Shown in pieces: positions 41,066-62,535 of a DNA stretch of 64,000 nt. A program made the position numbers and the translations under genes. The DNA is from Flavobacteriaceae bacterium PS02337 (GTDB taxonomy: Bacteria; Bacteroidota; Bacteroidia; Flavobacteriales; Flavobacteriaceae). The first letter of the stretch is position 1; every line of letters starts with the position of its first letter. Under the pieces are notes generated by a model. That model searched no databases. It saw only the letters and a program-made list of their open reading frames with translations, and had not been told where the DNA came from. Location of the stretch: positions 1 to 64,000 of the forward strand of contig JASCOE010000014.1 in NCBI GenBank assembly GCA_029959285.1, in the 5' to 3' direction.

Positions 41066-43069
41066 TTATTTTTTGCTGGTTTTATAATACTGTATCCCGC
41101 ATTCTAGAAAATTTTTAAAATCATCTTTTGACATATAGCCTGAAATAGGGGAGTTAATAACTTTTCCATCTGGTGTTACCATAACATAATGTGGTTGCGA
41201 ATTATTGTTAAAGTTTATTTGTTGAAACATAGACCATTGGTCTCCAACTGTTTTAATTTTTTTCTTCTGTCCATTCCCCATATCAATTGATCTTTGTTGT
41301 TCTTTTGGTAACTCTTCGCGATCATCTACATATAAGGAAGCCAATACAACCTCGTTTTGAATTAGAGGTAAAACATCTGGTTCACTCCAAACAAATTCCT
41401 CCATTTTACGACAATTCTCGCACCCGTATCCGGTAAAATCTATAAGAACAGGTTTATTCTTTTCTTTTGCTACTTTAATAGCTTCATAATAATCATGTTC
41501 TGGATGTATTCCAAAAATGCCGTCCTCTGGGGAAGTATAGAAGCTTACATTTAAAGGAGGCAGAATGCCACTTAGTAAAGATAAACGTGGTTTCTCTGAG
41601 TGTAATAAGCCCGGTATCAAATACAATACAAACAAAATACCTGCGATCCCAAAACTTTTTCTAACAGTTGTTATCTTTTCATTTTTATCATCATGTGGGA
41701 ATCGGATTTTACCAAACAGGTACAAAACTAGACCCACTGTTACTATAATCCACAGTGCAATAAATACCTCTCTCTTTAGCAAAAAAGTCTTGGAAACTAA
41801 ATCCGCTTTTGATAAAAATTTTAATGCTAATGCTATTTCTATAAAGCCCAGACATACTTTTAATGTATTCATCCAGCTTCCTGATTTTGGAAGTGATAAT
41901 AATACTTGCGGAAATAAAGCTAAAAATCCAAATACAAATGCCCAGGCAAGTCCAAATCCTCCAAGAGCAAATGACAGTAACGTTGGGACATCTTTAGAAC
42001 TAGAAGCAACTCCGCCTAAAAGACTACCTAAGATAGGGCCGGTACACGAAAAGGAAACAATTACTAGTGTTAATGCCATAAAAAATATCCCTACAATTCC
42101 CCCAGCTTCTTCTGCTTGGGAGGATCTATTGACAATCCAAGTCGGTAACGTTATATTATAATATCCAAAAAAACTTAATGCAAAGAATAAGAATACAACA
42201 AAGAACACTAAGTTCAACCATATATTTGTTGCTATCTCATTGAAAACATTTCCACTGATACCATCTAAAATATGGAAAGGAATACTTAGTACTAAAAAGA
42301 TGACTAAAATAAACCCGCCATAAATCAGTGCATTCCGTTTTCCTTTAGATCTATCAGTAGCATTTTTTGTAAAGAAAGAAACTGTCAGTGGAATCATAGG
42401 GAAGACGCATGGTGTCAACAACGCTATTAATCCTCCTAGGAATCCTAATAGCAATACCAGCCAATTACCAGATTCTTCTGTGACTTGCTCATTACCACAA
42501 TCTACCAGGGGATTTTTAAAATCTAATGTATTGACCTTAATGTCACTTTGCAGATGAGCTAAATCAGAATCTTGCATTTCACTTACTATGATTTTGGACT
42601 TTGTTTCCAAATCATTTTTTGCATTTACTATTTCCTCAAATTCTATCGTATTTGGAGCTAAACAAATTTTATCGTTGCATACCTGAAAAATAATCTCAGT
42701 AGCTATCTTGGGATTGATTCCGTTACTTTTTAATCTGAATTTTTGAATAAATCTTACAGAATCGGCAAAATATACTATTTGAACACCAAATGCTTCACTG
42801 AACTCTTCTGTTTTTTTTCCCAGCTCTTTTACGTCTCCTATTAATTCAACGTTATTACTAACAATTTTCATTTTTGTTGGTATACCGCTATCCTTTGGTA
42901 AATCCTTAGAGTAAAGATGCCAACCTTCGTCTATCTGTGCTTTCAACACAGCCTCATATTCATTGTCTGCGATTTTATTAATTTTATAATCCCACTTAAC
43001 AACTTCCTTTATCTGAGCCTGTAAGTTTGTTATTTGGAACAATAGCAAGACCCATAACCATTTTTTCAT
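41066..43069 (-). CDS. dsbD: DsbD-family thiol:disulfide interchange protein
   Basis: 667 residues: signal peptide (WLWVLLLFQITNLQAQ), an amino DsbD-alpha-like domain (25-180), an eight-span membrane domain (about 200-470, with LLTPCVFPMIPLTVSFFTKN and FSCTGPILGSLLGG carrying the membrane Cys) and a carboxy thioredoxin domain (IDFTGYGCENCRKMEEF, CxxC near 548). It moves cytosolic electrons to periplasmic thiols. Placed after exported MsrA and MsrB genes, it probably recharges them. It ends the araC-cmd-msrA-msrB-dsbD run. Confidence 0.9.
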   Translation of the reverse strand: MKKWLWVLLLFQITNLQAQIKEVVKWDYKINKIADNEYEAVLKAQIDEGWHLYSKDLPKDSGIPTKMKIVSNNVELIGDVKELGKKTEEFSEAFGVQIVYFADSVRFIQKFRLKSNGINPKIATEIIFQVCNDKICLAPNTIEFEEIVNAKNDLETKSKIIVSEMQDSDLAHLQSDIKVNTLDFKNPLVDCGNEQVTEESGNWLVLLLGFLGGLIALLTPCVFPMIPLTVSFFTKNATDRSKGKRNALIYGGFILVIFLVLSIPFHILDGISGNVFNEIATNIWLNLVFFVVFLFFALSFFGYYNITLPTWIVNRSSQAEEAGGIVGIFFMALTLVIVSFSCTGPILGSLLGGVASSSKDVPTLLSFALGGFGLAWAFVFGFLALFPQVLLSLPKSGSWMNTLKVCLGFIEIALALKFLSKADLVSKTFLLKREVFIALWIIVTVGLVLYLFGKIRFPHDDKNEKITTVRKSFGIAGILFVLYLIPGLLHSEKPRLSLLSGILPPLNVSFYTSPEDGIFGIHPEHDYYEAIKVAKEKNKPVLIDFTGYGCENCRKMEEFVWSEPDVLPLIQNEVVLASLYVDDREELPKEQQRSIDMGNGQKKKIKTVGDQWSMFQQINFNNNSQPHYVMVTPDGKVINSPISGYMSKDDFKNFLECGIQYYKTSKK

Positions 43070-43131: not shown

Positions 43132-43659
43132 TTATCTGTCTTTTTTAAGCGTATCAGGCTCAAAATCCATTGAAATGGAATTCATACAGTAACGCTTATA
43201 TGTAGGGGCGGGGCCATCATCAAAGATATGTCCGAGATGCGAATTACAACGATTGCATTCAACCTCTGTTCTATGCATGCCATGTGAATTATCTTCTTTA
43301 TAGACGACACTGTTTTTAACGGGTTCGAAAAAACTAGGCCACCCACAACTGCTTGAAAATTTAGCATCTGAACGGAAAAGTTTATTTCCACACACCGCAC
43401 AATAGTAGGTGCCTTTCGTTTCACTATCCCAATATTTACCAGTAAATGCCTGTTCAGTAGCCTGTAATCTTGCAACTTGATACAACTGTGGATTTAAGAC
43501 TTTTTTCCATTCTGCATTACTGATATTTAATTTTTTTTTATCGGTTCTGGAATAATAAGGATTTTCCATATGTTCCTGACTTATACCTTTATTCGTTTCC
43601 TGCGCATAACAACTACCTAAGAAAAACATGCATCCAATTAATATCAATATCCTTTTCAT
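43132..43659 (-). CDS. msrB: Exported methionine-R-sulfoxide reductase MsrB
   Basis: 175-residue MsrB with a lipoprotein-type signal (ILIGCMFFLGSCYAQ). Visible are zinc-site pairs CAVCGNKLF and CNRCNSHLGHIF, the SSCGWPSFFEPV segment and the catalytic RYCMNSISMDF. It reduces R-methionine sulfoxide in envelope proteins. Its start overlaps the msrA stop by 4 bp, so MsrA and MsrB are made together. Electrons likely come from the DsbD product encoded next. Confidence 0.9.
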   Translation of the reverse strand: MKRILILIGCMFFLGSCYAQETNKGISQEHMENPYYSRTDKKKLNISNAEWKKVLNPQLYQVARLQATEQAFTGKYWDSETKGTYYCAVCGNKLFRSDAKFSSSCGWPSFFEPVKNSVVYKEDNSHGMHRTEVECNRCNSHLGHIFDDGPAPTYKRYCMNSISMDFEPDTLKKDR

Positions 43660-44306
43660 TTATATTTCGGTTTAACTTTATTCTTAAACACTTTTTTAAA
43701 CTTGTCTAGCTTAGGTTTAATCACTCTCTGACAATACGCGGCCTCTGGATTATTCTCAAAATAATTTTGATGATAATCTTCTGCTTTGTAAAACTCTCCA
43801 TAAGTTGTTACTTCGGTTATTATATTCTTTGGATAAACCTGTTCAATATTCAATTCAGCAATGATAGCTTCAGCCAATTTCTTTTGACTTTCATCATGGT
43901 AAAAAATAGCGGACCTGTATTGTGTTCCAATATCGTCTCCCTGTTTATTTAATTGGGTCGGATCATGCGCGACAAAAAAACCTCCTAATAATTCTTTATA
44001 TGATATTCTTTCAGCATCATAGACTATATTACAAGCTTCTGCATGCCCGGTCATACCAGTACTTACTTCTTTATAGCTAGGATTTTTCTGATGACCACCA
44101 GTGTATCCAGAGGTTACAGATTCCACCCCTTCTAGTAGTTTGAATTGTTCTTCTACACACCAAAAACATCCGGCAGCAAACGTGGCAATTTCACAATTTT
44201 TACTATCTATTTCCATGACTCCCTTTCTTTCGACTTCTTTTTTTCCTATTTTTTTATTGATTTTCTGTTGACCACAGGAAACCAAGGGTATTTCGACCAA
44301 TGCCAA
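43656..44306 (-). CDS. msrA: Exported methionine-S-sulfoxide reductase MsrA
   Basis: MsrA with catalytic FAAGCFWCVEEQF, the GYTGGHQKNPSY and HDPTQLNKQGDDIGTQYRS motifs and carboxy AEDYHQNYF with a later Cys. A lipobox-like VEIPLVSC lies at the amino end, but no ATG precedes it. The frame opens right after the upstream cmd stop (in the same frame), and only TTG codons, or an ATA that may be a mutated ATG, could start an exported form. A cytosolic start at the ATG of MEIDSKN (about 44219) is possible. TTG at 44306 is the choice shown. Confidence 0.8.
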   Translation of the reverse strand: MALVEIPLVSCGQQKINKKIGKKEVERKGVMEIDSKNCEIATFAAGCFWCVEEQFKLLEGVESVTSGYTGGHQKNPSYKEVSTGMTGHAEACNIVYDAERISYKELLGGFFVAHDPTQLNKQGDDIGTQYRSAIFYHDESQKKLAEAIIAELNIEQVYPKNIITEVTTYGEFYKAEDYHQNYFENNPEAAYCQRVIKPKLDKFKKVFKNKVKPKYK

Positions 44307-44336: not shown

Positions 44337-44879
44337 CTAGTGTTCTTTTAATTCTTTAGCTAAAGGAAAATCTATTGGCACATTTAAAACTTTGCTTGTG
44401 AAGTTTGTGATGAAACTATCACCTACGACATGCAACGCATCAATCAGATTTTCATGATTATAGCCCATTTTAAAACATTGTTGAAGCAGTTGCACACTAA
44501 TCCTATTTTTTTCTTCAACTACATTTTTAATGAATTTTACCAGCGCATCTAATTTTTTATCAAATTCAGCATTCCCCCGACGAAGCTGTAATATTTGATC
44601 TTCATCAAAACCATTTAGCTTTCCGATCATAGTATGGACACTTAGACAATATAAAGAATTGTTTTTTTGAGAAACCACTAACATAATCGCTTCGCATTCT
44701 TGCTTTGACAAAGAAACCTTTCTAGTATGAAATTGATAGTAATTACTTAATGCATTTTCTGAATGCATCATCGACGCATAAAGATTAGGGACACTCCCTA
44801 AACGCTCTTTGAAGTATTTCAAGAACTCCTTGTTTTTTTTACTAACTTCCTTATTATCGGGTATTTCTATTGTTAACAT
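44337..44879 (-). CDS. AhpD/CMD-family protein with SxxC site
   Basis: 180-residue carboxymuconolactone-decarboxylase/AhpD-fold protein (RLGSVPNLYASMMHSENALS near 30; SLYCLSVHTMIGKLNGF near 100). The AhpD-type CxxCxxxH site has lost its first Cys (SLYC), so a normal disulfide cycle is unlikely. Its carboxy end (VLNVPIDFPLAKE) matches the CMD at 52156. It lies 31 bp after an AraC gene and before msrA. A pseudogene copy of this araC-cmd pair lies at 53886-55138. Confidence 0.8.
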   Translation of the reverse strand: MLTIEIPDNKEVSKKNKEFLKYFKERLGSVPNLYASMMHSENALSNYYQFHTRKVSLSKQECEAIMLVVSQKNNSLYCLSVHTMIGKLNGFDEDQILQLRRGNAEFDKKLDALVKFIKNVVEEKNRISVQLLQQCFKMGYNHENLIDALHVVGDSFITNFTSKVLNVPIDFPLAKELKEH

Positions 44880-44910: not shown

Positions 44911-45744
44911 TTATTCTCTAAATTTGGAGATGTTTGTACCGGTATACATTTTAAAAAATCTGCTAAAATGTGCCGGACTTTCAAAACCTAATTCGTATGC
45001 AATTTCCTTTGCCGTTTTGTCGGTATAATGCAGATATCTTTTTGCTTCCAGGATAATCCTATTTTGTATTATTTTTGATGGAGCAGGTTGCCTCAAAATC
45101 GCGAAAATATTACTCAAAGTTTTTGGTGATTTATTTAACGCATCTGCATAAAATTTCACTCCATGTTCCTTTTTAAAATTTTCTTCCAGTAATAAGGCAA
45201 ACTTTCTGATCATATCAAGTTTTTCATCTGAAAATTTTGAATAGCATTCACTTTGCTGTTTTGCAGTACGGGTCGTTTTAATTATTAGATGTTTCAGCAA
45301 AGTCCTAAGCATTTCTCCTTGAAAATTATCTTGCGATAACCATTCATCAGAAAACATTTTTTCTAAGTATCGCATTTCTTCTTTCTCATCCTCATTTAAT
45401 TTAATAAACATAGGATGTTCAATACCATAAAATAGAAAACCAACGCAACCTACTTCAGCATCATGATCTACTATGCAATAAAACTCTCTGTTAAACTGCC
45501 AGGCAATTAATTGATCTGGTTTTTCAAATGTGAAATTTTGATTGGATACTAATGGTAATAAAGACCTTTCGGGCATTTCATAGTCAATTTCATCAATTTT
45601 TACTTTTTGCTTAGAACCTTTATTATAAACAAAAGTGTTGATAGGTGCTGTTGGCTTACGAAGTCCTGCTCCTTTTAACTGATCACTGTTCACATGCATG
45701 ACGAATCTTGCTGAAGTTATTTTATCTTCGTATTCCCTTACCAT
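44911..45744 (-). CDS. AraC-family regulator, redox island copy 1
   Basis: 277 residues: an amino cupin-like sensor part (1-170) and a carboxy double HTH (about 180-277: GVKFYADALNKSPKTLSNIF; AKEIAYELGFESPAHFSRFF). Two cysteines at 90 and 100 (EFYCIVDHDAEVGC) are kept in both paralogues in the window. It heads the cmd-msrA-msrB-dsbD run and is close to copy 2 at 53886. It is one of three candidates to read the 21-bp-period operators found at 48.3, 49.1 and 52.0 kb. Confidence 0.88.
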   Translation of the reverse strand: MVREYEDKITSARFVMHVNSDQLKGAGLRKPTAPINTFVYNKGSKQKVKIDEIDYEMPERSLLPLVSNQNFTFEKPDQLIAWQFNREFYCIVDHDAEVGCVGFLFYGIEHPMFIKLNEDEKEEMRYLEKMFSDEWLSQDNFQGEMLRTLLKHLIIKTTRTAKQQSECYSKFSDEKLDMIRKFALLLEENFKKEHGVKFYADALNKSPKTLSNIFAILRQPAPSKIIQNRIILEAKRYLHYTDKTAKEIAYELGFESPAHFSRFFKMYTGTNISKFRE

Positions 45745-45903: not shown

Positions 45904-46668
45904 TTACAAAATTGCTGCTGTCGCACCTCCGTCCACTACAATATTTTGACCGCTCACATACGATGCCTTATCCATTGCTAAAAAAGCAACTACCGCTGCT
46001 ATTTCTACATCTTGGGCCACGCGTCGCAATGGGGTTCTGTTTGTTATTGCACTTAATTTTTGTTCATCTGCCAATACATTTTTTGTTGCTGGTGTTTCGG
46101 TAAACCATGGCGATACCGTATTTACTCTAATTTTATCTTCTGCCCATTCATTCGCTAGGTTTCTTCCCAATTGAATTAGCCCTGCCTTTGACATTCCGTA
46201 AGGAGCACCAGTTCTAGCATCCAATATTCCCGCTACAGACGCAATATTGACCACCGCACTTCCTGCCCCGTCCAAAAGGCTTGAATATAAAATTCTACTT
46301 AATTCAAATGGGGCTAACACATTTACTTCAAATACAGATCTGTATTCTCTTTCTTCATATTCGTTACTTGGTTTACGAATATTAATTCCAGCATTATTGA
46401 CCAGCACATCTAATTTACCCCATTTTTTATCTACCCACATTTTAATTCTCAAACGATGATCTGTACTAGTTACGTCAGCTGACATACCATATACATTTAA
46501 TCCTCGCTCTCTCAAAGCACTCTCTACTTTAATGACCTCCTCATTATCGCGTGCAGTAAACAATACTTCGGCTCCTAATTCCGCAAACTCTGTGACTATT
46601 GCTTTCCCAATCCCTTTGGAACCTCCCGTTATTACTACTTTTTTCCCTTCTAAATTCCAATTTTTCAT
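45904..46668 (-). CDS. SDR-family oxidoreductase
   Basis: 254-residue classical short-chain dehydrogenase: cofactor loop TGGSKGIGKA near 14, NNAGINIR near 93, catalytic Ser in NIASVAGI near 145, YGMSKAG near 158 and RVNTVSP near 184. The sequence is close to tropinone-reductase-like and 3-oxoacyl reductase SDRs, and the substrate cannot be told. It is the last gene of the operon that starts at the AraC-type promoter near 48.3 kb, 16 bp after the thioredoxin gene. Confidence 0.85.
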   Translation of the reverse strand: MKNWNLEGKKVVITGGSKGIGKAIVTEFAELGAEVLFTARDNEEVIKVESALRERGLNVYGMSADVTSTDHRLRIKMWVDKKWGKLDVLVNNAGINIRKPSNEYEEREYRSVFEVNVLAPFELSRILYSSLLDGAGSAVVNIASVAGILDARTGAPYGMSKAGLIQLGRNLANEWAEDKIRVNTVSPWFTETPATKNVLADEQKLSAITNRTPLRRVAQDVEIAAVVAFLAMDKASYVSGQNIVVDGGATAAIL

Positions 46669-46684
46669 GTCTTTATATTTTCAG

Positions 46685-47155
46685 TTATTTTTTCTTTGAA
46701 GCCTGTTCACCAAATTCTATCAACTGCTTTCCATTGACAAATCCTATTTTTGTCATCACTAATTTACCTTGTGGAGTGAAGAATAATAATGTTGGATATG
46801 CTGTCACTTTCCATTTCTCTGCTAATGCAATACCTTCACCACTCTCCATATCAATGGTCACATTAATGAAATTTTTATTAAAATACACTGCTGCTTCTTT
46901 CTCTTTGAATGTTTTAGATTTCAGTAATTTACAAGGCGCGCACCAAGTTGTATAAGCATCCACAAAAATATATTTATTACTTTTTTTTGCTTTTGCAGCA
47001 ATTTCGCTCCATTTCCCATTAGTAAAGTCAATTTCCTGACTTTCCTTTTTCATACCGGCTTTTGGATTATTTTGGGCAAATGACATACTTACTAAAGACA
47101 CCAATGCAAAAATTAGCATCGTATAAGTCATTACTCTTTTCTTAGTTTTTAACAT
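46685..47155 (-). CDS. Exported thioredoxin-like protein
   Basis: 156-residue thioredoxin-fold protein with a signal peptide (LIFALVSLVSMSFAQ) and active site YTTWCAPCKLLKSKTF near 70, then the cis-Pro region VTAYPTLLFF. A Trp/Ala-Pro CxxC of this type reduces envelope disulfides. It lies 10 bp after the peroxiredoxin-like gene and may serve it as reductant. Confidence 0.88.
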   Translation of the reverse strand: MLKTKKRVMTYTMLIFALVSLVSMSFAQNNPKAGMKKESQEIDFTNGKWSEIAAKAKKSNKYIFVDAYTTWCAPCKLLKSKTFKEKEAAVYFNKNFINVTIDMESGEGIALAEKWKVTAYPTLLFFTPQGKLVMTKIGFVNGKQLIEFGEQASKKK

Positions 47156-47165
47156 CGTTTCTGTT

Positions 47166-47870
47166 TTATAAGTCTTTAAATATTGTTTGTGCTACTACCT
47201 TTAATAATTCAGGCTTTAACCTTTTTGTAATATCTGGATTGATGTATTCAAAATTTATTTCACCATTTTTGCTTAATATAAATACCGATGGAACAGGTAT
47301 CAACAAATCAATGTCTTTTCCGCCAGTAGACTTAGGGAGAAAATCCCAATAACCTTTAGGGGCTTTATACGCGATGCCGAATTGCTTAGAAACTGCCAGA
47401 TCTGCATCTGACAACAATGTGTATTCTAAGCTTGCTTTATCCATTGAAGCGTTTAAACCTTCAGGCTTATCGGTGCTTATTGCAATTAACTGATATCCCA
47501 TTCTTTCCAGATCGCCTGATATTTCTTGTAATCCAGATAATTGTTTAGAACAGTATGGACACCATCCACCCCGATAAAAAACTAAGATAGTAGGTTTCTC
47601 AGCTACCATTTTATTTAAATCGACAATTTTCCCTTGCTGATTCATCAACGTTACCATAGGTATTTTCTCTCCTGCCAAAAGTGGGCTGATATCCTCAGCT
47701 TTTTGAGGATACATATTCTCTCCCATAGCCATCCTCCCCATTTCCATCTGGCTTTTTTCTTTATGGTCCATCATGTTCTTTTGTTGTCCTTGGGCATTGG
47801 CCTGACTAACCATTATAAGCAGACCAAGTATGCTCATAATGTGTTTTATTTTTTGTGTTATACTTTCCAT
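47166..47870 (-). CDS. Exported peroxiredoxin-like (AhpC/TSA) protein
   Basis: 234 residues with a signal peptide (MSILGLLIMVSQANAQ) and a redoxin domain. The motif FYRGGWCPYCSKQLSGLQ carries a CxxC at the peroxidatic position, as in the peroxiredoxin-like subfamily, and a later Thr-Asp-Lys-Pro segment follows (ISTDKPEG). It would reduce peroxides or act as thiol oxidoreductase in the periplasm. It is the second gene of the operon from the 48.3-kb promoter. Confidence 0.85.
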   Translation of the reverse strand: MESITQKIKHIMSILGLLIMVSQANAQGQQKNMMDHKEKSQMEMGRMAMGENMYPQKAEDISPLLAGEKIPMVTLMNQQGKIVDLNKMVAEKPTILVFYRGGWCPYCSKQLSGLQEISGDLERMGYQLIAISTDKPEGLNASMDKASLEYTLLSDADLAVSKQFGIAYKAPKGYWDFLPKSTGGKDIDLLIPVPSVFILSKNGEINFEYINPDITKRLKPELLKVVAQTIFKDL

Positions 47871-47890: not shown

Positions 47891-48229
47891 TTAAATGTTT
47901 TTTGCTAAAGGAAAATCTACCGGTACTTGTGTTACGGCATGTAATAAGTTGCTTATTGTACGATCACCTAACATTGTTGCAAATGATACAGCCTGTCCTT
48001 TACCTGCATATAATTGAATTGAAATTGATTCTCCTGGCATAATTAGAGGAGAACCGCCATTATTTTTAAATGTTCCTGATTCAACTAAAGGTCTGGAGTC
48101 CAATACATTTTCAATTGTAATCGTTGACGATGATGACATTTCCATCATGCCATCATCGTCCTTACTACATGATGCTAAAACTAATGATAGTCCCAAAAGT
48201 GATAACCACCCAAATTGTTTGTGTCTCAT
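47891..48229 (-). CDS. Chimeric gene: spondin-like lipoprotein front, CMD tail
   Basis: 112 codons. Residues 1-85 are the start of a spondin-N-type lipoprotein (lipobox LVLASC, then ITIENVLDSRPLVESGTF and GESISIQLYAGKGQAVSFAT). The last 26 residues (LGDRTISNLLHAVTQVPVDF and on) are almost the same as the end of the CMD protein at 52156 (IGDRTISNILHAVTQVPNEF). Neither domain is complete. An in-frame deletion joining two genes is the simplest origin. It is the first gene behind the 48.3-kb AraC-type promoter and may be non-functional. Confidence 0.8.
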   Translation of the reverse strand: MRHKQFGWLSLLGLSLVLASCSKDDDGMMEMSSSSTITIENVLDSRPLVESGTFKNNGGSPLIMPGESISIQLYAGKGQAVSFATMLGDRTISNLLHAVTQVPVDFPLAKNI

Positions 48230-48256: not shown

Positions 48257-48323
48257 CAAAGGTATTTGATGATATTAGTTATACTGATGTCCAAATTTCC
48301 CTATCATATGACTGAATTTCCCG
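48257..48323 (-). promoter_or_regulatory. AraC-type operator and promoter A
   Basis: On the minus strand, CGGGAAATTCAGTCAT and AGGGAAATTTGGACAT begin exactly 21 bp apart (48323 to 48287). After 22 bp comes the -7 box TACCTTTG (48264-48257). It drives the chimera-peroxiredoxin-thioredoxin-SDR operon. Confidence 0.75.
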
Positions 48324-48329
48324 ATTTAC

Positions 48330-49132
48330 GGTATCTATCTGTTTAACTCGAAAAAATTATTGATTTGGGAGATTCAAATTGACAAAATTAGCTAACTTAA
48401 AATGTCAACCACCTATTCAAAGGAAAATTTGAAACAGTAAATCGAAGACAGAATCAAAAAAAGAGAATTAATACCATGTTAACATACAATCCAGCCATGT
48501 ATTCATCAATCATATTCTATTCCTTCACAGGATAGAGGTCTTAGCGGGTTCTATGTAAAAATGGTATCATGACTTACTTGCACAAATTGCTTGGGTAAGT
48601 GGTTTTTTATATTCAAAAAAATACGCAGATTCCAAAACATCATTAACGGCAGTGTGTCTAAAAACCTAAACCTAACTGCTGAGAATCGAATATACGCGAA
48701 TTTTGTAAGATAGGTGCCCGTGTATGAAATTGTGATTTGAGGTTATTACACAGTTTGACGGTCAGCACCTCATGGCAAATGCGAATTGGTGGAGTGGTCT
48801 TTATTACATTTAGTCTGCTAAATTCCGAATATAAAATTTCAACATAAGGACCGTTGACATAGGATCACGGCTCTCACTATATTACCTGATAATATTTGCT
48901 TCCCTTATATCTTTTAGTGGTATGTACGAGTATCTACACAAGTAAGTATATATGCTTATGTAATCCTGTAGTGGCTATATTGCTTAGTTTATTCTTCACA
49001 AAAGATAAAATCACTTTAATTCTATGATAGGCCTTTTTATTATTTTAGAAAGCATCTTATTCATGAATATAAAAAATACGGAACAGCTTTAAATTAGAAT
49101 TAGAAAGAAAGCTATTCCAATTTAGTCGATAA
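48330..49132. other. Long gene-free stretch
   Basis: About 800 bp between two divergent AraC-type promoters with no open frame or RNA I can recognise. Stop codons are frequent in all frames. It may be decayed coding DNA left by the deletions seen around it. Confidence 0.5.
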
Positions 49133-49198
49133 AAGGAAATTTCGTCATGTATTAGGGAAATATGGACTATTAACCGCGCTGTTTTATAAATATCTTTG
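49133..49198 (+). promoter_or_regulatory. AraC-type operator and promoter C
   Basis: AAGGAAATTTCGTCAT and AGGGAAATATGGACTA begin 21 bp apart (49133 to 49169), followed after 21 bp by the -7 box TATCTTTG (49191-49198). It lies just before the DUF417 gene. Confidence 0.75.
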
Positions 49199-49223
49199 TT
49201 TTATCAAATAAAAAAATAAAAAA

Positions 49224-49661
49224 ATGGAAAAATCAAGCAACATAAAAACGCCAAGTATCGGGCTATTAATCATGGTTCTAGGTACAGCAGTTGTTCTACT
49301 CTGGATCGGTGCTTTTAAGTTTACATTAACGGAAGCTAAAGGAATTAAATCTCTCGTAGAAAATCATCCTTTAATGGGATGGAGTTATGAAATATGGTCA
49401 ATTAGAACCGTTTCAAATATAATCGGCATAATTGAAATTATCACGGGATTAATGCTGTTGATAGGAATAAAAATAAAAAATAGCCTAAAATGGGCTGGAT
49501 TGCTAATGATTTTGACTTTTGGATTTACAATTAGTTTTTTATTTACTACTCCTGGAGTATGGAAGACAGTAGATGGAGTACCTGTTACGGACTTTTTTAT
49601 TTTGAAAGATTTAGTCTTTTTGGGATTTGGTGTGGCCTTATGGAAAGATAGTATTAAATGA
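49224..49661 (+). CDS. DUF417 (YkgB/RclC-like) membrane protein
   Basis: 145-residue protein with four spans (SIGLLIMVLGTAVVLLWIG; TVSNIIGIIEIITGLMLLIG; WAGLLMILTFGFTISFLF; FFILKDLVFLGFGVALW) and the family segment FKFTLTEAKGIKSLVENHP. E. coli RclC (YkgB) of the reactive-chlorine regulon belongs to this family. Here the gene stands alone behind an AraC-type operator inside an island of methionine-sulfoxide and thiol repair genes, which supports a related oxidant-defence role. The exact function is unknown even in E. coli. Confidence 0.85.
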   Translation: MEKSSNIKTPSIGLLIMVLGTAVVLLWIGAFKFTLTEAKGIKSLVENHPLMGWSYEIWSIRTVSNIIGIIEIITGLMLLIGIKIKNSLKWAGLLMILTFGFTISFLFTTPGVWKTVDGVPVTDFFILKDLVFLGFGVALWKDSIK

Positions 49662-49794
49662 AGCCTCGGTAGCTGAAGAATCAATCGAATCAACGATAAA
49701 ATTGTATTGTGAATAAATAATTAATGAAAACAAGATTAGAAATAATGGGAGGCGTTAGTATGAGGTTACTTTTAAGTAGCCTTGTATTGATTTT

Positions 49795-49834
49795 GTTGAG
49801 CTTCAATCGTATGGATATACGATTGAAGCTCAAC
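49795..49834. repeat. Perfect 18-bp inverted repeat, 4-base loop
   Basis: GTTGAGCTTCAATCGTAT (49795-49812), loop GGAT, then its exact complement (49817-49834). AGCC/GGCT could extend pairing outside. There is no T-run, so it is not a standard terminator. Confidence 0.8.
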
Positions 49835-49845
49835 AGGCTTCCCAT

Positions 49846-50016
49846 ATGGAAATCTCTTATTGCAATCCTTTAAAAAGTGATTGTAAATCACATCAATCCG
49901 GTAAGACAAAAAATAATAAATGTAAAAGGGAATGTTCAAGTAAATGTTGCGGGAAAGCATGTAATAATGGCTCTATTGTAGTCGCAGTAATTGAAAAATC
50001 TACGAAAAGAATATAA
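49846..50016 (+). CDS. Small Cys-rich hypothetical ORF
   Basis: 56 codons with seven Cys (residues 6, 13, 26, 30, 34, 35, 39) and many Lys, including CKRECSSKCCGKAC. The frame is open back to 49780 without another ATG. The Cys spacing is suggestive of a metal- or disulfide-bearing peptide, but no family is recognised, and it may be a remnant frame-shifted from the signal-like ORF at 49760. Confidence 0.3.
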   Translation: MEISYCNPLKSDCKSHQSGKTKNNKCKRECSSKCCGKACNNGSIVVAVIEKSTKRI

Positions 50017-50154
50017 TGTTGATCATTGTAAACGTCGAAATTACCGACAAACCCCTACTCATACCATGCTCACTTATCGAAAGTAGCATAAAGGATTATG
50101 TCGCTAATTTGAAATTGCCTTTGAATAAATAGAAAACCTCAATTACATAAGAAA

Positions 50155-50673
50155 ATGAAACAATTTTTTACACTGATTATCTTTTTTGGTACATTTTGTA
50201 CAGCAATGGCTCAATCAACAGACAGTCTACAGGTACAGTTAGCAAGAAAATGGACTAATAGTAAATCTTATGCACTAAAGCTTGCTGCCTTAATGCCAGA
50301 AAAGGATTATGAATTTAGAGCTACGGATGAGGAAATGACTTTTACGGAGCAGTTGCTTCATATTGCCGACAATATGAATTGGTTATCGTCCACTTACCTT
50401 TTTACTAATGCCCCTGTTAAAAGAGATCCTGCAATAAAGCTCTCAAAGGCTGAAGTATTAAAAGTATTAGCGGAGGCCTACGATCGTGGATTGCAGGGCC
50501 ACAATAGAACAAGCAAAATGCAATTGGAAGAGCATGTGAAGTTTTTTGCCGGACCAATGACCAGGAGTCAGATTTTAATTTTGATGCATGACCACCAAAC
50601 TCACCATCTCGGACAGCTTATCGTTTACTTGCGTCTTAAAGGCATTAAGCCACCGAATTACGTGGGTTGGTAA
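50155..50673 (+). CDS. Exported DinB-family protein
   Basis: 172 residues with a signal peptide (FTLIIFFGTFCTAMAQ) and a DinB four-helix bundle. The metal-binding His are visible in EQLLHIADNMNWL (near 62) and HDHQTHHLGQLIVYLRL (near 143-149). DinB/YfiT-type proteins are metal-dependent thiol-handling enzymes (some use bacillithiol or mycothiol), which fits the redox neighbourhood. The substrate is unknown, and the exported form is common in Bacteroidota. Confidence 0.85.
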   Translation: MKQFFTLIIFFGTFCTAMAQSTDSLQVQLARKWTNSKSYALKLAALMPEKDYEFRATDEEMTFTEQLLHIADNMNWLSSTYLFTNAPVKRDPAIKLSKAEVLKVLAEAYDRGLQGHNRTSKMQLEEHVKFFAGPMTRSQILILMHDHQTHHLGQLIVYLRLKGIKPPNYVGW

Positions 50674-50737
50674 AACAAAAAATGTTTTTCAGTCAAAGAA
50701 CTAACAATGGCTAAGTTTTAAAATCAATTGAAAAAAA

Positions 50738-51532
50738 ATGAAGAACAGAAGAACCTTTTTACAGACCGTAGCACCAATAGGACTATTAAGTTTGGTGAAT
50801 ATTGAAGGCTTTGCAAATAAGCCTGAGCTTTCAACCAATAAGCATGAAGTTGCAACAGATAAGCCGAAAGTTATTTTCTTCGATGTAAATGAAACCTTAC
50901 TGGATTTAGAGCCCCTGAAGAAATCTGTTGTTGCAAAACTTGGAGGTAACAAGGAACTTGGTACATTATGGTTTACAACAATGCTTCAATACTCACTAGT
51001 GGTTACCGTAAGCGACCAATACATGGATTTTGGCAGCATTGGAGCCGCAACATTAAGAATGGTTGCAAAGAACAATAAGATTGATCTAAGCGAGGATGAA
51101 GCGAAAGCAGCAGTGAAGCCAATTTTGTCTTTAAAGCCACATCCTGAAGTCACGGAGGCTTTAGCGCTGTTGAAAAAAGCCGGATATGTTCTAGTCTCAT
51201 TTAGCAATTCTTCGAATAAGGCAGTCAAGTCGCAACTAGAATTTGCCGGAATTGACTCTTTCTTTGATCAAATTTTAAGTGTAGAGGATTATGGAAAATT
51301 TAAGCCGCATATCGAAGTGTATAAGTGGGCTGCAAGAAAAATGAATGTAAAAAATGTTGATTGTATGCTAGTAGCTGCTCATGGATGGGATGTTGGTGGA
51401 GCAAAGTGGGCTGGTTGGCAAACCGCGTTTGTATCTAGGCCCGGTCAACAGCTATTTCCTCTTGCGATCAGGCCAGATATCGTTAAGGATGATCTATTGA
51501 AAGTCGCCAATGAAATTTTAGCATTGAAATAA
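50738..51532 (+). CDS. Exported haloacid-dehalogenase-type (type II) hydrolase
   Basis: 264 residues. A twin-Arg-like signal (NRRTFLQTVAPIGLLSLVN) precedes a HAD domain: nucleophile Asp in IFFDVNETLLDL near 48, VSFSNSSNKAVKSQ near 157, Lys in VEDYGKFKPH near 190 and VAAHGWDVGGAKWAG near 212, as in 2-haloacid dehalogenases. Dehalogenation of small chlorinated acids would suit chlorine stress but is not proven; export of such an enzyme is unusual. Confidence 0.85.
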   Translation: MKNRRTFLQTVAPIGLLSLVNIEGFANKPELSTNKHEVATDKPKVIFFDVNETLLDLEPLKKSVVAKLGGNKELGTLWFTTMLQYSLVVTVSDQYMDFGSIGAATLRMVAKNNKIDLSEDEAKAAVKPILSLKPHPEVTEALALLKKAGYVLVSFSNSSNKAVKSQLEFAGIDSFFDQILSVEDYGKFKPHIEVYKWAARKMNVKNVDCMLVAAHGWDVGGAKWAGWQTAFVSRPGQQLFPLAIRPDIVKDDLLKVANEILALK

Positions 51533-52044
51533 TAATAGAAAAGTATTGTTTACGGTAGTTTTCTCTTTAGATCATCAATAATTACAAAAAGTAATAATGC
51601 TATAAACAGTTGACCTTCCCCCGCTAAACTGCTACGATTTAAAGTAGAGTAAAATGGCAATATATTGTTTAAGAAAGCCGGCAATTTACTGTCAAAATTC
51701 ACACCTAAGATGGCGCACAGTACTACAATACAATGTAGAAATAACTACTTCTTAATAAGGAAAGTGAAGGGAGAATAAACTGCCCGATGCATCTGGGAAA
51801 TATCAAATAAAGTTGTTTAAAAGAGAACTTTAGGGAAAATCAAAAAAACAAATTTGAAATTATTGGAAGGGAATACTCGTGCGTTTTAAGAAACATACAT
51901 AAGCAGGTCTTACATACAGATAAACTATTTCACCCACAATTTCTTTTTCGGTGATGGCTAACGTGTAAGTACTCTAATATAGCTAGTCAATTTGTACATC
52001 GTCAATATTTATTAAAACATATCCGGAAGTGAAATTTTCCATAT
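51533..52044. other. Gene-free stretch before the cmd operon
   Basis: About 510 bp with no supported gene, RNA or repeat; stops occur in all frames. It ends at the AraC-type operator. Confidence 0.5.
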
Positions 52045-52111
52045 CGGGAAGTATAGACAACTTAAAGGGAAGTACGGACATTTGTGAAAGCTTTCCCTCG
52101 GCTTACCTTTG
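52045..52111 (+). promoter_or_regulatory. AraC-type operator and promoter B
   Basis: CGGGAAGTATAGACAA and AGGGAAGTACGGACAT begin 21 bp apart (52045 to 52081), then 22 bp to the -7 box TACCTTTG (52104-52111). The geometry matches promoter A exactly. The site precedes the CMD gene at 52156. Confidence 0.75.
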
Positions 52112-52155: not shown

Positions 52156-52695
52156 ATGGAAAATACATTCAACGTCCTAAAAAGAGAAGAGGTTTCAGCA
52201 AAAAATCAACAGATATTCGATGGTCTGAAAAAAGCATTCGGTGCTGTGCCTAATTTGTACTCTACGTTAGCTTATTCCGAAAATGCGCTAGAAGCTTATA
52301 TTAATCTTGAAAATAGCAAAACTTCGTTAACAAAAAAAGAAATTGAGGCGGTAACGCTCGTAGTTAGTGAGGTGAATAGTTGTTTATATTGCTTAAGTGC
52401 ACATACTATGGTAGCCAAGATGAATGGTTTCACAGAAGAACAGACGCTTGAAATCAGAGGTGGAAGTGCAGGGTTTGATAAAAAATTGAATGCTTTGGTA
52501 AAACTCGCCAAACAGCTTTCAGAAAAAAGAAATGCAGGTGATGGAACATTGGTAGCAGCCTTTTTTGATGCCGGTTATTCGAAAGAGAACCTTATTGATA
52601 TGATCGTGCACATAGGCGACAGAACTATCAGTAACATATTACATGCTGTAACCCAAGTGCCTAATGAATTTCCATTAGCAAAATCTATTAGCTAG
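52156..52695 (+). CDS. AhpD/CMD-family peroxidase-type protein
   Basis: 179-residue AhpD-fold protein with an intact site CLYCLSAHTMVAK (near 78, CxxCxxxH). This arrangement lets AhpD-like proteins act as thiol peroxidases or reductants. The front KAFGAVPNLYSTLAYSENAL is typical. Its carboxy end is the source-type sequence seen fused in the chimera at 47891. It is expressed from promoter B and followed after 49 bp by a second CMD gene. Confidence 0.85.
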   Translation: MENTFNVLKREEVSAKNQQIFDGLKKAFGAVPNLYSTLAYSENALEAYINLENSKTSLTKKEIEAVTLVVSEVNSCLYCLSAHTMVAKMNGFTEEQTLEIRGGSAGFDKKLNALVKLAKQLSEKRNAGDGTLVAAFFDAGYSKENLIDMIVHIGDRTISNILHAVTQVPNEFPLAKSIS

Positions 52696-52744: not shown

Positions 52745-53290
52745 ATGATGCCAAGAACACAAGCTCTAAAGCCGGAACAGGTGCCGGCTGACTCTAAACC
52801 AACTCTTGATACGTTCACCAAGATGCTCGGGTTCACGCCAAATATGCTTGCGACATTTGCGCAGAGTCCAATTGCGTTTAATGCATGGGCTACTTTCCGC
52901 AGTTCCCTGAACAAGGTGCTTGACGTGAAGACGCGAGAAATCATCAGCCTCGCCGTCTCTGAGGTGAATGGCTGCAACTACTGCCTGGCGGTTCACAGCT
53001 ATGCGGCCAGTATGGCTAAGTTGCCGGCCGATGAAATTATTCTCGCTCGAAAAGGCCATGCTATCGATCCGAAGAAGGACGCCGCCGTCCAGTTTGCGCG
53101 CAAAATCATCGAGACCCGCGGTCAGGTCGGTGAGTCTGATCTGGAAACTGTTCGTCAAGCTGGATATACAGATGCGAATGTCATGGAGATTGTCGCTCTG
53201 GTGGCTATGTATTCACTGACGAACTTTTTCAATAACGTGTTCGATCCGGAGAAGGACTATCCCGCTGTTCCGCTGGCTGGTTCGATCTAA
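52745..53290 (+). CDS. AhpD/CMD-family protein, GC-rich import
   Basis: 181 residues, CMD/peroxidase-related family, with intact CNYCLAVHSYAA (near 77), KMLGFTPNMLATFAQSP at the front and FNNVFDPEKDYPAVPL at the end. Codons are markedly GC-richer (many GCC, CTG, ATC, CGC) than the AT-rich neighbours, pointing to recent acquisition, perhaps from a proteobacterium. It lies in the same direction as the CMD gene before it and probably shares its promoter. Confidence 0.85.
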   Translation: MMPRTQALKPEQVPADSKPTLDTFTKMLGFTPNMLATFAQSPIAFNAWATFRSSLNKVLDVKTREIISLAVSEVNGCNYCLAVHSYAASMAKLPADEIILARKGHAIDPKKDAAVQFARKIIETRGQVGESDLETVRQAGYTDANVMEIVALVAMYSLTNFFNNVFDPEKDYPAVPLAGSI

Positions 53291-53885: not shown

Positions 53886-54725
53886 ATGATCAAAGAATAT
53901 AACGAAAATGCAACATTGGCGCGGTTTGTTATGCACAGCGATAATCAACTGTTTTCAGGATTAGGACTTAGCAATTCAAGTCCTAATCCCGTAAATACTT
54001 TTGTTTACAATAAGGGTGAATCGCAAGAAGTACTCATCGATGCGATAGCCTACACAATGCCACCACGGAGCATTCTTCCGCTCGTTTCCAATCAGCATTT
54101 CACCTTTCAGCATCCTGAGACCCTAACTGCCTGGCAATTTAACCGTGAATTTTACTGTATCATCGATCACGATGCTGAAGTTGGATGCGTCGGTTTTCTC
54201 TTCTACGGAATCCAGCATCCAATGTTTATCACACTAAATGCCGATGAAGCAGAAGAATTGTCCGACCTTGAAAAAGTGTTTTCTACTGAACTGATGGTGA
54301 GGGATAATTTTCAGGGAGAAATGCTTCGTACCTTATTAAAAAGGGTAATTATAAAAACTACACGAATAGCAAAGCTTCAAAGTGAAAGCTATTCAAAATT
54401 CCCTGATGAAAAAATGGATATTGTGAGAAAATTTGCATTGCTTCTCGAAAAAAATTTCAAAGAACAACATCAGGTTAATTTTTATGCAGGTGCCCTCCAT
54501 AAATCTCCTAAGACATTGAGCAATGTTTTTGCACGATTAAAACAACCGGCACCTTCGGTACTCATTCGTGAAAAGCTTCTGTTGGAAGCCAAACGTTATT
54601 TACATTATACCGAAAAATCAGCTAAAGAAATAGCATACGAACTTGGGTTTGAAAATCCGGCACATTTCAGCAAGTTTTTTAAGCTCTATACGGGAACAAA
54701 TATTTCGAAGTTCAGAAGTATCTGA
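53886..54725 (+). CDS. AraC-family regulator, redox island copy 2
   Basis: 279 residues, highly similar to copy 1 at 44911 along its length (TFVYNKG; PLVSNQHFTFQ; AWQFNREFYCIIDHDAEVGC; AHFSKFFKLYTGTNISKF). The cupin-like part is at 1-170 and the double HTH at about 182-279. The cysteines of EFYC and EVGC are at 91 and 101. It is followed by a broken cmd gene, mirroring the araC-cmd order of copy 1 in opposite orientation. It is the nearest regulator to promoter B. Confidence 0.88.
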   Translation: MIKEYNENATLARFVMHSDNQLFSGLGLSNSSPNPVNTFVYNKGESQEVLIDAIAYTMPPRSILPLVSNQHFTFQHPETLTAWQFNREFYCIIDHDAEVGCVGFLFYGIQHPMFITLNADEAEELSDLEKVFSTELMVRDNFQGEMLRTLLKRVIIKTTRIAKLQSESYSKFPDEKMDIVRKFALLLEKNFKEQHQVNFYAGALHKSPKTLSNVFARLKQPAPSVLIREKLLLEAKRYLHYTEKSAKEIAYELGFENPAHFSKFFKLYTGTNISKFRSI

Positions 54726-56213: not shown

Positions 56214-56274
56214 GATGGGAAGAATTGCCAAAATATCGGGTGATAACGGTAAGAGAAAGGGTATTGCCGTATAT

Positions 56275-56282
56275 TAACTTTG
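56275..56282 (+). promoter_or_regulatory. -7 box of the trx-msrB-msrA operon
   Basis: TAACTTTG fits TAnnTTTG and lies 31 bp before the thioredoxin ATG. No AraC-type repeat was found next to it. Confidence 0.5.
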
Positions 56283-56313: not shown

Positions 56314-56640
56314 ATGAGAAAAATAGAAAGTAAACAGGAATTTGAAGAAACAATTCAAAAAGAAGCAAGCGTAGTTGTAGATTTTTACGCCGACTGGTGT
56401 GGTCCTTGCCAGGCGCTATTACCCACATTGGATGACCTGTCCAAAGACTTTGAGGGGAAGGTCAAAATAGTTAAAGTTAATGTTGATAATCAACAGGAAC
56501 TTGCCCAGCGTTTTGGTGTGCGTAGCATCCCCACATTGATCTTTTTCAAGAACCAAAAAGCTGTGGAGACCATAGTAGGTCTTCGAACCAAGGACGAACT
56601 TCAAAAGAAGATATCCGCGTTGGAAATAGGAAATAAATAG
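56314..56640 (+). CDS. trxA: Thioredoxin
   Basis: 108-residue cytosolic thioredoxin without signal, active site DFYADWCGPCQALLPTL near 33-36, cis-Pro in VRSIPTLIFF near 76. It heads a run trx-msrB-msrA-hypothetical-msrA-gap and most likely supplies electrons to the Msr enzymes encoded after it. Confidence 0.92.
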   Translation: MRKIESKQEFEETIQKEASVVVDFYADWCGPCQALLPTLDDLSKDFEGKVKIVKVNVDNQQELAQRFGVRSIPTLIFFKNQKAVETIVGLRTKDELQKKISALEIGNK

Positions 56641-56661: not shown

Positions 56662-57108
56662 ATGTTAAACTGGAATGATATCATCAAGTTCGTAAACAAA
56701 GGTAATCCTGTTCCGACTCGCAGGGTGGAAAAAACAGACGAGGAATGGAAAGAACTGTTAAGCCCCGATTCGTATTTTGTTACCAGGGGGAAGGGTACTG
56801 AGCGAGCACATAGTTCGGATATGTGCGGCTTATTTGAACCGGGTAAATATGAATGTATCAGTTGTGGAACACCTTTGTTTGATGCAACTGAAAAATTTAA
56901 CAGCACTTCTGGCTGGCCTTCTTTCACTCAGCCCATAGCTGTTGAAAATATTGCCTACCATAAGGATGGTGGTTATGGTATGATAAGAGTGGAAACGACC
57001 TGCAATGTCTGTGATGCGCATTTGGGCCATGTTTTTCCGGATGGTCCTGCACCAAGTGGTCTTAGATACTGTATCAATGCCGTGGCGCTTAAGAAAGTAG
57101 AGGGCTGA
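56662..57108 (+). CDS. msrB: Methionine-R-sulfoxide reductase MsrB, cytosolic
   Basis: 148 residues, no signal peptide. Zinc sites are CISCGTPLF and CNVCDAHLGHVF, with FNSTSGWPSFTQPI and catalytic RYCINAVAL. An extra amino region (WNDIIKFVNKGNPVPTRRVE) is typical of the free-standing cytosolic form. It lies 21 bp after trx and 63 bp before msrA, a compact R/S-sulfoxide repair set. Confidence 0.9.
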   Translation: MLNWNDIIKFVNKGNPVPTRRVEKTDEEWKELLSPDSYFVTRGKGTERAHSSDMCGLFEPGKYECISCGTPLFDATEKFNSTSGWPSFTQPIAVENIAYHKDGGYGMIRVETTCNVCDAHLGHVFPDGPAPSGLRYCINAVALKKVEG

Positions 57109-57171: not shown

Positions 57172-57663
57172 ATGGAAAATTTGAAAAAAGCATATTTGGC
57201 GGGTGGATGTTTCTGGGGCATGGAAGATCTTTTCAGAGCACGTCCTGGCGTAATTAATACCGAAGTCGGGTACTTAGGGGGACAGAACGATAATCCCACC
57301 TACGAGTATCATCCCGGCCATGCAGAGGGTGTTGAAATTACCTATGATCCAAGCAAGACAACTTATAGGGAGTTATTGGATTATTTTTTCAGGGTACATG
57401 ATCCCAGCACGGTAGATAGGCAGGGCAATGACAGGGGCAAAAGTTACCGCTCGGCACTATTCATTCAGAACGATGAAGAAGGAAATGATGCCGTGGAAAT
57501 GATCAAATTAGTTGATGATTCGCAACGCTGGCCTGGAAAGGTAGTAACGACATTGGAGCCGTTCACAAAATTTTGGCCTGCCGAAGACTACCATCAAGAT
57601 TATCTGGTCAAAAATCCGAATGGCTACACCTGCCACTTTGAGCGCTTTGGAACTTTTTTGTAA
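57172..57663 (+). CDS. msrA: Methionine-S-sulfoxide reductase MsrA, cytosolic
   Basis: 163 residues. The active site [12 protein letters not shown] has the catalytic Cys but Gly where two-Cys MsrAs have a second Cys. [48 protein letters not shown] and a late Cys (GYTCHFERF) follow. Full length and intact, cytosolic, paired with the MsrB before it. Confidence 0.9.
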
Positions 57664-61620: not shown

Positions 61621-61713
61621 TCTGATTTAAAGATTCGCTTTAAATTAAATTGTGTTTTGAGATTATATGTATTTTTGATAATAATATAGAAGTACTTTAA
61701 ATTGAATATTAAT

Positions 61714-62535
61714 ATGATCTATCAAGGAAAGCAGAACGAATACTTTGAGTTGGAGTATGTAGATTGTGACAATTTCAGAAGCTTTAGGCCGATTGTATCT
61801 GGGGCTCTGCAGCTACTGTGGTTTCAATCTGACGGAAACAAATTGATCATCGATGGCATTCACCAAACTTTTAATAACAACCAGATTGTTAGTCTCTCTC
61901 AATACCATCATGTGCAATATGAGCAGATTAACGCTATGAAAATGCTTCGGTTCAATTCAGAATTCTATTGCATAATTAACCATGATAGCGAAGTCGGCTG
62001 TAAAGGTGTATTGTATTATACACCTGCAAAAATACCGGTTGTTTCGGTTCAGGAGCCGCAATTTGCGATAATGAATGATGCCTGGAACCTAACCGATATG
62101 GAATTAGAAATGAAAGACGAATTGCAGCTTGAAATGCTGCAAATTGTCCTCAAGCGCATCCTGATACTGTGCACAAGAATATACAAAATGCAAGGTACCT
62201 TGTCTTTCATCGACGATAGTCAGCATAATTTAATAAGGGAATTCAATTTTCTGGTTGAACAAAACTTTAAGGAGCAGCATAGCGTCTCTTACTATGCAGG
62301 TTTATTACACAAATCACCAAAGACCATTACCAATACCTTTAAGAAGATTGATGAAAAATCACCACTTCAGCTTATCCATGACCGTATTCTGTTAGAGGCT
62401 AAAAACTTGCTGCATTATACAAAACGGGATATTTCTGAAATAGCGTACGAACTCGGATTTGAAAACGTGCAGGTATTCAGCCGATTTTTCAAGAGACTCT
62501 CAGGTATTTCTCCTACCGAATTTCGACTCAAATAA
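61714..62535 (+). CDS. AraC-family regulator, redox island copy 3
   Basis: 273 residues from the ATG at 61714 (a TTG at 61702 would add four). It shares the layout of copies 1 and 2 but is more diverged: FNSEFYCIINHDSEVGCKGV holds the same Cys pair, and the HTH part reads YAGLLHKSPKTITNTFKK, AYELGFENVQVFSRFFKR and GISPTEFRLK. It ends the redox island. Its target may be the cysS-redoxin genes or itself; no 21-bp repeat was found before it. Confidence 0.85.
   Translation: MIYQGKQNEYFELEYVDCDNFRSFRPIVSGALQLLWFQSDGNKLIIDGIHQTFNNNQIVSLSQYHHVQYEQINAMKMLRFNSEFYCIINHDSEVGCKGVLYYTPAKIPVVSVQEPQFAIMNDAWNLTDMELEMKDELQLEMLQIVLKRILILCTRIYKMQGTLSFIDDSQHNLIREFNFLVEQNFKEQHSVSYYAGLLHKSPKTITNTFKKIDEKSPLQLIHDRILLEAKNLLHYTKRDISEIAYELGFENVQVFSRFFKRLSGISPTEFRLK

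Follow-up and report, generated by a model that had tools for sequence, protein, structure and literature searches.

The putative operator elements and their promoters

The DNA analysed here, hereafter the window, comprises 64,000 nucleotides (positions 1 to 64,000, forward strand) of contig JASCOE010000014.1 (assembly GCA_029959285.1) of Flavobacteriaceae bacterium PS02337, class Bacteroidia. It carries genes for CMD (AhpD-like) proteins, peroxiredoxin, thioredoxins, MsrA, MsrB and AraC-family regulators, and direct repeats of two half-sites stand before several of these genes; we interpret the repeats as putative operators of an AraC-type activator. Operator 1 (48322-48287, minus strand; half-sites GGGAAATTCAGTCAT and GGGAAATTTGGACAT, 15 bp each) precedes a run of nine genes, operator 2 (49134-49169, plus strand; AGGAAATTTCGTCAT and GGGAAATATGGACTA) lies 5' of a DUF417 gene, and operator 3 (52046-52081, plus strand; GGGAAGTATAGACAA and GGGAAGTACGGACAT) lies 5' of a pair of CMD genes. 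The initial annotation had placed these elements at 48323-48287 (minus), 49133-49169 and 52045-52081, and all three are present within one base of those positions. The half-sites have the form (A/G)GGAA(A/G)T..nGnCA, one of them with CT for CA, and their starts are 21 bp apart in every case. A -7 box of the form TAnnTTTG follows the second 15-mer after 22, 21 and 22 bases at operators 1, 2 and 3, in agreement with the 21-22 bp annotated. It reads TACCTTTG in promoters 1 (48257..48264, minus) and 3 (52104..52111, plus), and TATCTTTG in promoter 2 (49191..49198, plus), where it is one base nearer than in the other promoters.

A weaker operator 4 (56217..56252, plus) has three mismatches to a looser version of the pattern and a matrix score of 23.0, and lies 5' of a trx-msrB-msrA group; its -7 box, TAACTTTG (56275..56282, plus), ends 31 bases 5' of the thioredoxin start codon. 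The three promoters originally assigned to the regulon are all there, and the set now appears wider, with this fourth site and the nine-gene run behind operator 1.

In a genome-wide search of the kind that the initial annotation had proposed, a 35-base consensus with up to three mismatches matched operators 1-3 only in the 5.70-Mb genome, and the reversed pattern matched nowhere in it. A longer, looser pattern that includes the -7 box gave 12 matches in this genome versus 1 in the control; three of the 12 (C5:113269, C8:69684 and C16:12688, with three mismatches each) may be chance. When a matrix derived from 60 foreign elements (see below) was run over the window, the highest scores were 43.4 at 52046, 30.2 at 48322 (minus) and 23.0 at 56217 (plus), with 17.0 at 49134, one base out of register. 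The next-best score in the window was 4.2, and the best in 20 random windows of matched dinucleotide make-up was 5.9. Identity among promoters 1-3 was 0.60-0.80 in the half-sites, 0.30-0.32 over the 87 upstream bases and 0.33-0.43 over the 54 downstream bases. Because the flanks are near chance identity, the three are not recent copies of one promoter, an origin that the initial annotation had named as one that would undo its reading.

Conservation of the element and its link to AraC genes

A CMD protein search over 299 genomes of the family yielded 90 places in 84 genomes (73 genera). We analysed 89 of these places, omitting the window's third CMD gene (44349), which lies 31 bp from araC; tests on 87 regions leave out two further regions from the genome of PS02337 itself, and the set was not thinned by genus. 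Up to 500 bases upstream of CMD were scanned, some regions being shorter or at contig ends, with a matrix built solely from the six half-sites of the window and a cut-off of 15 bits. In total, 61 of the 87 foreign regions scored above the cut-off. Forty rounds of dinucleotide shuffling gave on average 0.05 such regions and never more than 1, and the reverse strand of the same regions gave none. Over all 89 regions, 62 passed at a spacing of 21 bp; the remaining spacings between 14 and 35 gave 0-12 each, with the 12 at spacing 20. The TTTG of the -7 box was located exactly 62 bases from the element start in 58 of 60 elements, whose consensus is GGGAAAaaTtGACAAgc..t.gGGaAaT...t.Cat, followed by 22 bases and CAtCTTTG.

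The period was also recovered by self-similarity, without a matrix, for periods 12 to 35. At offset 62, a value taken from the matrix-based analysis, period 21 was found in 34 of the 87 regions when 10 of 15 bases had to be alike (other periods, at most 1) and in 62 when 9 of 15 sufficed (other periods, at most 3), the two thresholds having been run side by side. With the offset left free, period 21 peaked at offsets 63 (35/87) and 62 (34/87), and other periods reached at most 5. The looser pattern gave 184 matches versus 32 for its reversed control over 76 of the 84 genomes, the eight omitted (G005, G047, G070, G091, G173, G196, G276 and G294) being low scorers earlier; 75 of the 76 had a match, a selected figure on which we do not rely. 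Of these 76 genomes, 20 or more have a pair of elements separated by 235-271 bases.

The element is associated with AraC genes. Of the 61 CMD loci with the element, 52 have an AraC gene upstream in the same orientation, versus 9 of the 26 without it (Fisher p 6e-6). At the class level (295 genomes), 21 genomes had an AraC relative with an E value of at most 1e-42 and 27 had a site with up to two mismatches (41 matches vs 4 in the control). The site was present in 17 of the 21 genomes with the AraC relative versus 10 of the 274 without; these counts were made by hand, the 17 include PS02337 itself (16/20 without it), and a few of the sites counted (e.g., L166) are not beside an AraC gene. Inspection by eye of 24 class-level AraC loci placed the start of the site between -52 and +42 relative to the stop codon of the AraC gene in 17, some of the sites being weak (the lowest score was 4.8) and one (L205) having CTTG for TTTG at the offset. 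In dozens of genomes, then, the element stands behind AraC-family genes and before CMD or mostly redox-type genes, a pattern that speaks for the AraC regulon initially annotated.

In Sphingobacterium shayense (L010), the half-sites were identical to those of window operator 1 at 15/15 and 14/15 bases, whereas ungapped alignment of the surroundings gave 24/57 upstream, 9/21 in the gap to the -7 box and 18/44 downstream. At the DUF417 promoter of S. shayense the element is recognisable but weaker (score 21.0 vs 39.8) and is followed by TACCTTTA in place of TTTG.

Other CMD genes are preceded by a different half-site type, TCCAT, which keeps the 21-bp period and the TTTG offset and lies near AraC paralogues of a separate clade (C52:233356 in the genome of PS02337, L163; also L169, L171 and L053). 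It was seen by eye at the same spacing in several of the 26 regions that had no element at the cut-off (e.g., L084, L087, L094, L097, L098 and L107). Since paralogues of a separate clade pair with TCCAT half-sites at the same period and offset, the architecture seems to belong to a wider AraC subfamily in which the half-site varies with the regulator. The TCCAT and GGGAA types are possible material for a regulator-operator recognition code.

Two AraC-family genes of the window encode candidate binders. One lies on the plus strand at 53886..54725; the other (44911..45744, minus), whose product is 70% identical to that of the first, lies inside the run behind operator 1. A third paralogue (61702..62535, plus) is about 40% identical and a less likely binder. 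The linked regulators have a C-terminal AraC-type helix-turn-helix domain above the HTH_18 cut-off (3.7e-18 for 53886, and 1.3e-19), and the window proteins, of 277-279 residues, had only helix-turn-helix domains in Pfam. Their best NCBIfam match, far below cut-off, was HpaA of 4-hydroxyphenylacetate catabolism; solved structures gave two weak matches only, to AraC-type DNA-binding domains (AdpA and AraC), and no relatives were detected in viral contigs. In a tree of AraC proteins, 53886 and 44911 fell in a supported group of 13 together with ten operator-linked AraCs. The operator labels in this tree were set by us: 18 CMD-adjacent AraCs were drawn at random, 14 of them with regions above 15 bits and four (L014, L078, L092 and L108) scoring 11-14, and the eight drawn members that share the group of 13 all exceed 15 bits.

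Cys91 and Cys101 are each present in 61 of 62 aligned AraCs from the CMD loci and the window, and in 31/33 and 30/33, respectively, of a wider set. They lie in a conserved block, F-Y-C-I-x-D-H-D-x-E-V-x-C. Five relatives that retain Cys91 have N, Q or Y at the position of His95 (L200, L206, L207, L212 and L217, the last without Cys101), so within the block the cysteines vary less.

Genes behind the putative operators

The nine minus-strand genes behind operator 1 are, in order, chimera-prx-trx-SDR-araC-CMD-msrA-msrB-dsbD, with gaps of 10-159 bases and one short overlap (msrA-msrB). The first (47891..48229) encodes a lipoprotein-like chimera of a spondin-type N-terminal part and a CMD-like C-terminal tail, judged by eye against L010 and CMD. 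It is followed by genes for a peroxiredoxin (AhpC-TSA; 47166..47870), a thioredoxin-like protein (46685..47155), an SDR oxidoreductase (45904..46668), the AraC regulator 44911, CMD family protein 3 (44337..44879, 31 bp behind the araC gene), an MsrA-like (43656..44306) and an MsrB-like protein (43132..43659), and a DsbD-type thiol:disulfide interchange protein (41066..43069); the SDR, MsrA-like and MsrB-like assignments were made by eye from the translations. No TAnnTTTG was found in the seven gaps tested, and the run is probably one transcript driven by the promoter at 48322. Regulator 44911 would therefore be part of its own regulon.

The chimera had no Pfam or NCBIfam match of its own. S. 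shayense has a full-length spondin protein of 450 residues, which matches the NCBIfam spondin model, and a divergent DUF417 gene. Two junctions of the spondin-CMD chimera were observed, one giving 112 residues in the window and in L007 (540-878), the other 120 residues in Epilithonimonas mollis (L011, 5221-5583).

Operator 2 precedes a gene for a DUF417 membrane protein (49224..49661, plus) that is distantly related to RclC of E. coli (30% identity) and scores far below the cut-off of the RclC model. Behind operator 3 are genes for CMD/AhpD-like protein 1 (52156..52695, plus) and CMD family protein 2 (52745..53290, plus), the latter apparently acquired from Proteobacteria. The G+C content of this second CMD gene is 51%, against 38% for the window, and its DNA is 77-81% identical to genes on plasmids of Paraburkholderia, Methylobacterium, Rhizobium, Pseudomonas and Microvirga. 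All ten matching records in the plasmid collection hit around this gene only, and all are from Proteobacteria; a cross-phylum capture behind a Bacteroidota operator is the probable origin. Operator 4 precedes plus-strand genes for a thioredoxin (56314..56640), MsrB (SelR; 56662..57108) and MsrA (PMSR; 57172..57663).

Positions 1-41000 of the window contain genes that by eye resemble those of a conjugative element (ParA, relaxase, TraG-like coupling protein, topoisomerase and a large methylase-helicase). Closely similar cargo or its promoters are found in Flavobacteriaceae PS02336, E. mollis and a metagenome-assembled genome labelled Ignavibacteriaceae (L007, L008 and L011), and this distribution suggests that the cargo has been transferred between genomes. 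The redox cargo includes a GAPDH-like gene (58562-59557) and a cysteinyl-tRNA synthetase-like gene (60139-61620), both identified by eye. GAPDH is oxidant-sensitive, and the two genes might be spare copies of vulnerable enzymes.

To survey targets elsewhere, we chose 40 further sites by hand from the pattern scans, leaving out chance-looking matches. The first gene behind the site was CMD in 12 and an isochorismatase-type hydrolase in 4; others were MsrA, OsmC, a glutaredoxin-thioredoxin reductase-like fusion, SPW-repeat, YHS and alpha/beta-hydrolase proteins, a quinone-oxidoreductase-like protein and some of no recognised kind (Pfam was used for six of the target genes, the rest being judged by eye).

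A small, conserved open reading frame of about 50 residues lies between araC and CMD in 49 of the 89 CMD upstream regions (e.g., L031, bases -300 to -132 before CMD), and has its own operator copy in many genomes. Its pattern is S-x-F-N-L-I-x-I-F ... H-C ... D-F/Y-Y-C-D-x-E (e.g., SIFNLIEIF ... HCE ... HDFYCDAEKP), and codon change was 0.53 at the third position, 0.32 at the first and 0.28 at the second. The one member searched had no Pfam or NCBIfam match.

Proposed mechanism, alternatives and known systems

AraC-type dimers on two direct half-sites, the nearer replacing the -33 element, are a standard activation arrangement of this family and of Bacteroidota promoters. The 21-bp repeat is very probably the docking site of the neighbouring AraC-type regulator. 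Two subunits would occupy the two half-sites from one face of the helix, and the promoter-near half-site, which keeps an almost constant distance from the -7 box downstream of it, would stand in for the -33 element, so that the protein recruits RNA polymerase (class II activation). One or both of 53886 and 44911 may in this way drive at least four promoters, those of the nine-gene run, the DUF417 gene, the CMD pair and trx-msrB-msrA. As inducer we consider likely a thiol-reactive oxidant akin to hypochlorous or hypothiocyanous acid, which Cys91 and Cys101 would sense; we favour this class because RclR-type targets (CMD and DUF417) and methionine and thiol repair genes stand behind the operators. 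From the sequence evidence we assign a probability of about 0.7 to the elements being operators of such a redox-sensing AraC-family activator.

The nature of the signal is where the closest competitor lies. The same operator and activator could respond to an organic molecule (a quinone, an aldehyde, an aromatic acid or another electrophile) bound at the N-terminal domain, with the redox genes handling by-products. The isochorismatase-type and alpha/beta hydrolases and the quinone-oxidoreductase-like protein among the targets elsewhere fit this idea, as does HpaA being the best, if far sub-threshold, match of the window AraCs; however, the Msr, Trx, DsbD, peroxiredoxin and OsmC targets indicate thiol and methionine oxidation, and the cysteine pair is nearly invariant. 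We consider an organic inducer unlikely, though a serious contender.

The conserved block could instead be read as a metal site formed by C91, H95, D96, E98 and C101, in which case the regulator would sense a metal or metal-catalysed oxidation with no disulfide involved. Although the composition of the block would suit a metal, the variation of H95 in the five relatives that keep Cys91 favours, without proving, a thiol switch over a metal site, which we regard as improbable.

It is very unlikely that the repeats are bound by another protein and that the AraC neighbour is incidental. The 9 of 61 element-bearing loci that show no upstream AraC in the DNA examined would be accounted for in this way, whereas the closeness of the operator start to the AraC stop codon (about 50 bases or less at 17 of 24 class-level loci, by eye), the co-occurrence across genomes (17/21 vs 10/274) and the pairing of the TCCAT half-site type with a separate AraC clade all argue against it. 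Chance, or recent copying of one promoter, can be practically dismissed, the flanks being only 0.30-0.43 identical and the element being conserved in other genera, and a chance origin was ruled out by the genome-wide, shuffle, converse-matrix and matrix-free tests.

Several observations weigh against a redox-sensing AraC activator acting at these elements. At the cut-off, 26 of the 87 CMD regions had no element, and 9 of these 26 nevertheless have an AraC gene upstream. Of the 24 foreign class-level AraC loci, only 10 are followed by a site that exceeds 15 bits. In the window, 53886 sits behind the operator-bearing CMD genes and not before them, and the Cys91/Cys101 pair is also found in paralogues not linked to the GGGAA operator. 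With 67 HTH_18 places in the genome of PS02337, exclusion does not single out the binder. Not all targets are obvious redox genes (SPW repeat, alpha/beta hydrolase, YHS and spondin are not), and none of the five DUF417 relatives found in other genomes of the class carried the element. A general role of DUF417 as a target is not supported on this count, and in the data seen it would therefore be a target solely in this cargo, its near copies and S. shayense. Finally, BLASTP of the 53886 protein against E. coli RclR gave no significant similarity (E 0.90).

If the redox-sensing activator is confirmed, a single motif would assign a regulator and a stress to the CMD/AhpD locus of 84 of the 299 family genomes, and would predict further targets, including the small protein without a family match. 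The inducer would then be testable with one promoter fusion. The operator would mark a little-studied and widespread oxidant-defence gene network.

The initial annotation knew of no described operator of this form, but there are precedents: direct repeats of about 21 bp are reported for HTCS and RhaR of Bacteroides, and 15-bp direct repeats for XylS. What looks new is the sequence of the half-sites, together with the subfamily of the regulator and the redox genes as targets. Among the literature titles and abstracts listed, with subscription journals mostly outside their scope, we found no description of this operator or of an oxidant-responsive AraC regulator of Bacteroidota.

At the Pm promoter, XylS is described as binding as a dimer to two 15-bp direct repeats, with boxes TGCA and GGTA that differ from the half-sites here (PMC5481539). 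This promoter of Pseudomonas putida is induced by benzoic acid derivatives. For RhaR of Bacteroides, an AraC-type regulator, direct repeats with about 21-bp periodicity are reported (PMC3870299); regulators of this type (Bacteroides, Bacillales and Enterococcus) control rhamnose catabolism, and the comparison here is one of repeat form. The HTCS of Bacteroides share the phylum, an AraC-type domain and the repeat length, with an average of 21 bp between the sites of their predicted direct-repeat operators (PMC3878776). In these hybrid two-component systems, which act in polysaccharide utilisation, a periplasmic sensor, a kinase and a receiver are joined in one long protein, whereas the window AraCs, of 277-279 residues and with redox targets, lack sensor kinase and receiver domains; HTCS membership was rejected on this basis.

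The closest functional parallel is RclR. In P. aeruginosa, the AraC-type RclR is reported to induce the AhpD-like rclX on exposure to hypochlorous acid (HOCl) and hypothiocyanous acid (HOSCN) (PMC7950407), and E. coli RclR is reported to control rclC, which encodes a DUF417 protein (PMC12096828). The proteins of 53886 and 44911 did not match the RclR NCBIfam model, to which E. coli RclR itself scores 557 bits, and no Cupin_6 domain was detected in the window AraCs; together with the BLASTP result, this led us to reject RclR membership. By analogy, the regulator may work like RclR without having been shown to be a member of that family. As in the reported rclX and rclABC systems, an AraC-family activator would adjoin an AhpD/CMD gene or control a DUF417 gene in oxidant defence, and the window operators stand before both an rclX-like (CMD) and an rclC-like (DUF417) gene as predicted targets. 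Tentatively, and with more doubt than confidence, we suggest an undescribed thiol-switch AraC family across the class as the Bacteroidota counterpart of RclR, which would respond to hypohalous-type oxidants through Cys91/Cys101 bind GGGAA-type 21-bp direct repeats rigidly spaced from the -7 box, act together with the conserved Cys-containing microprotein between araC and CMD, and have been brought together with msr, prx, trx and dsbD genes in a transferable oxidant-defence cargo. Compared with the RclR systems of P. aeruginosa and E. coli, the predicted target set in the window is wider and includes msr, prx, trx and dsbD.

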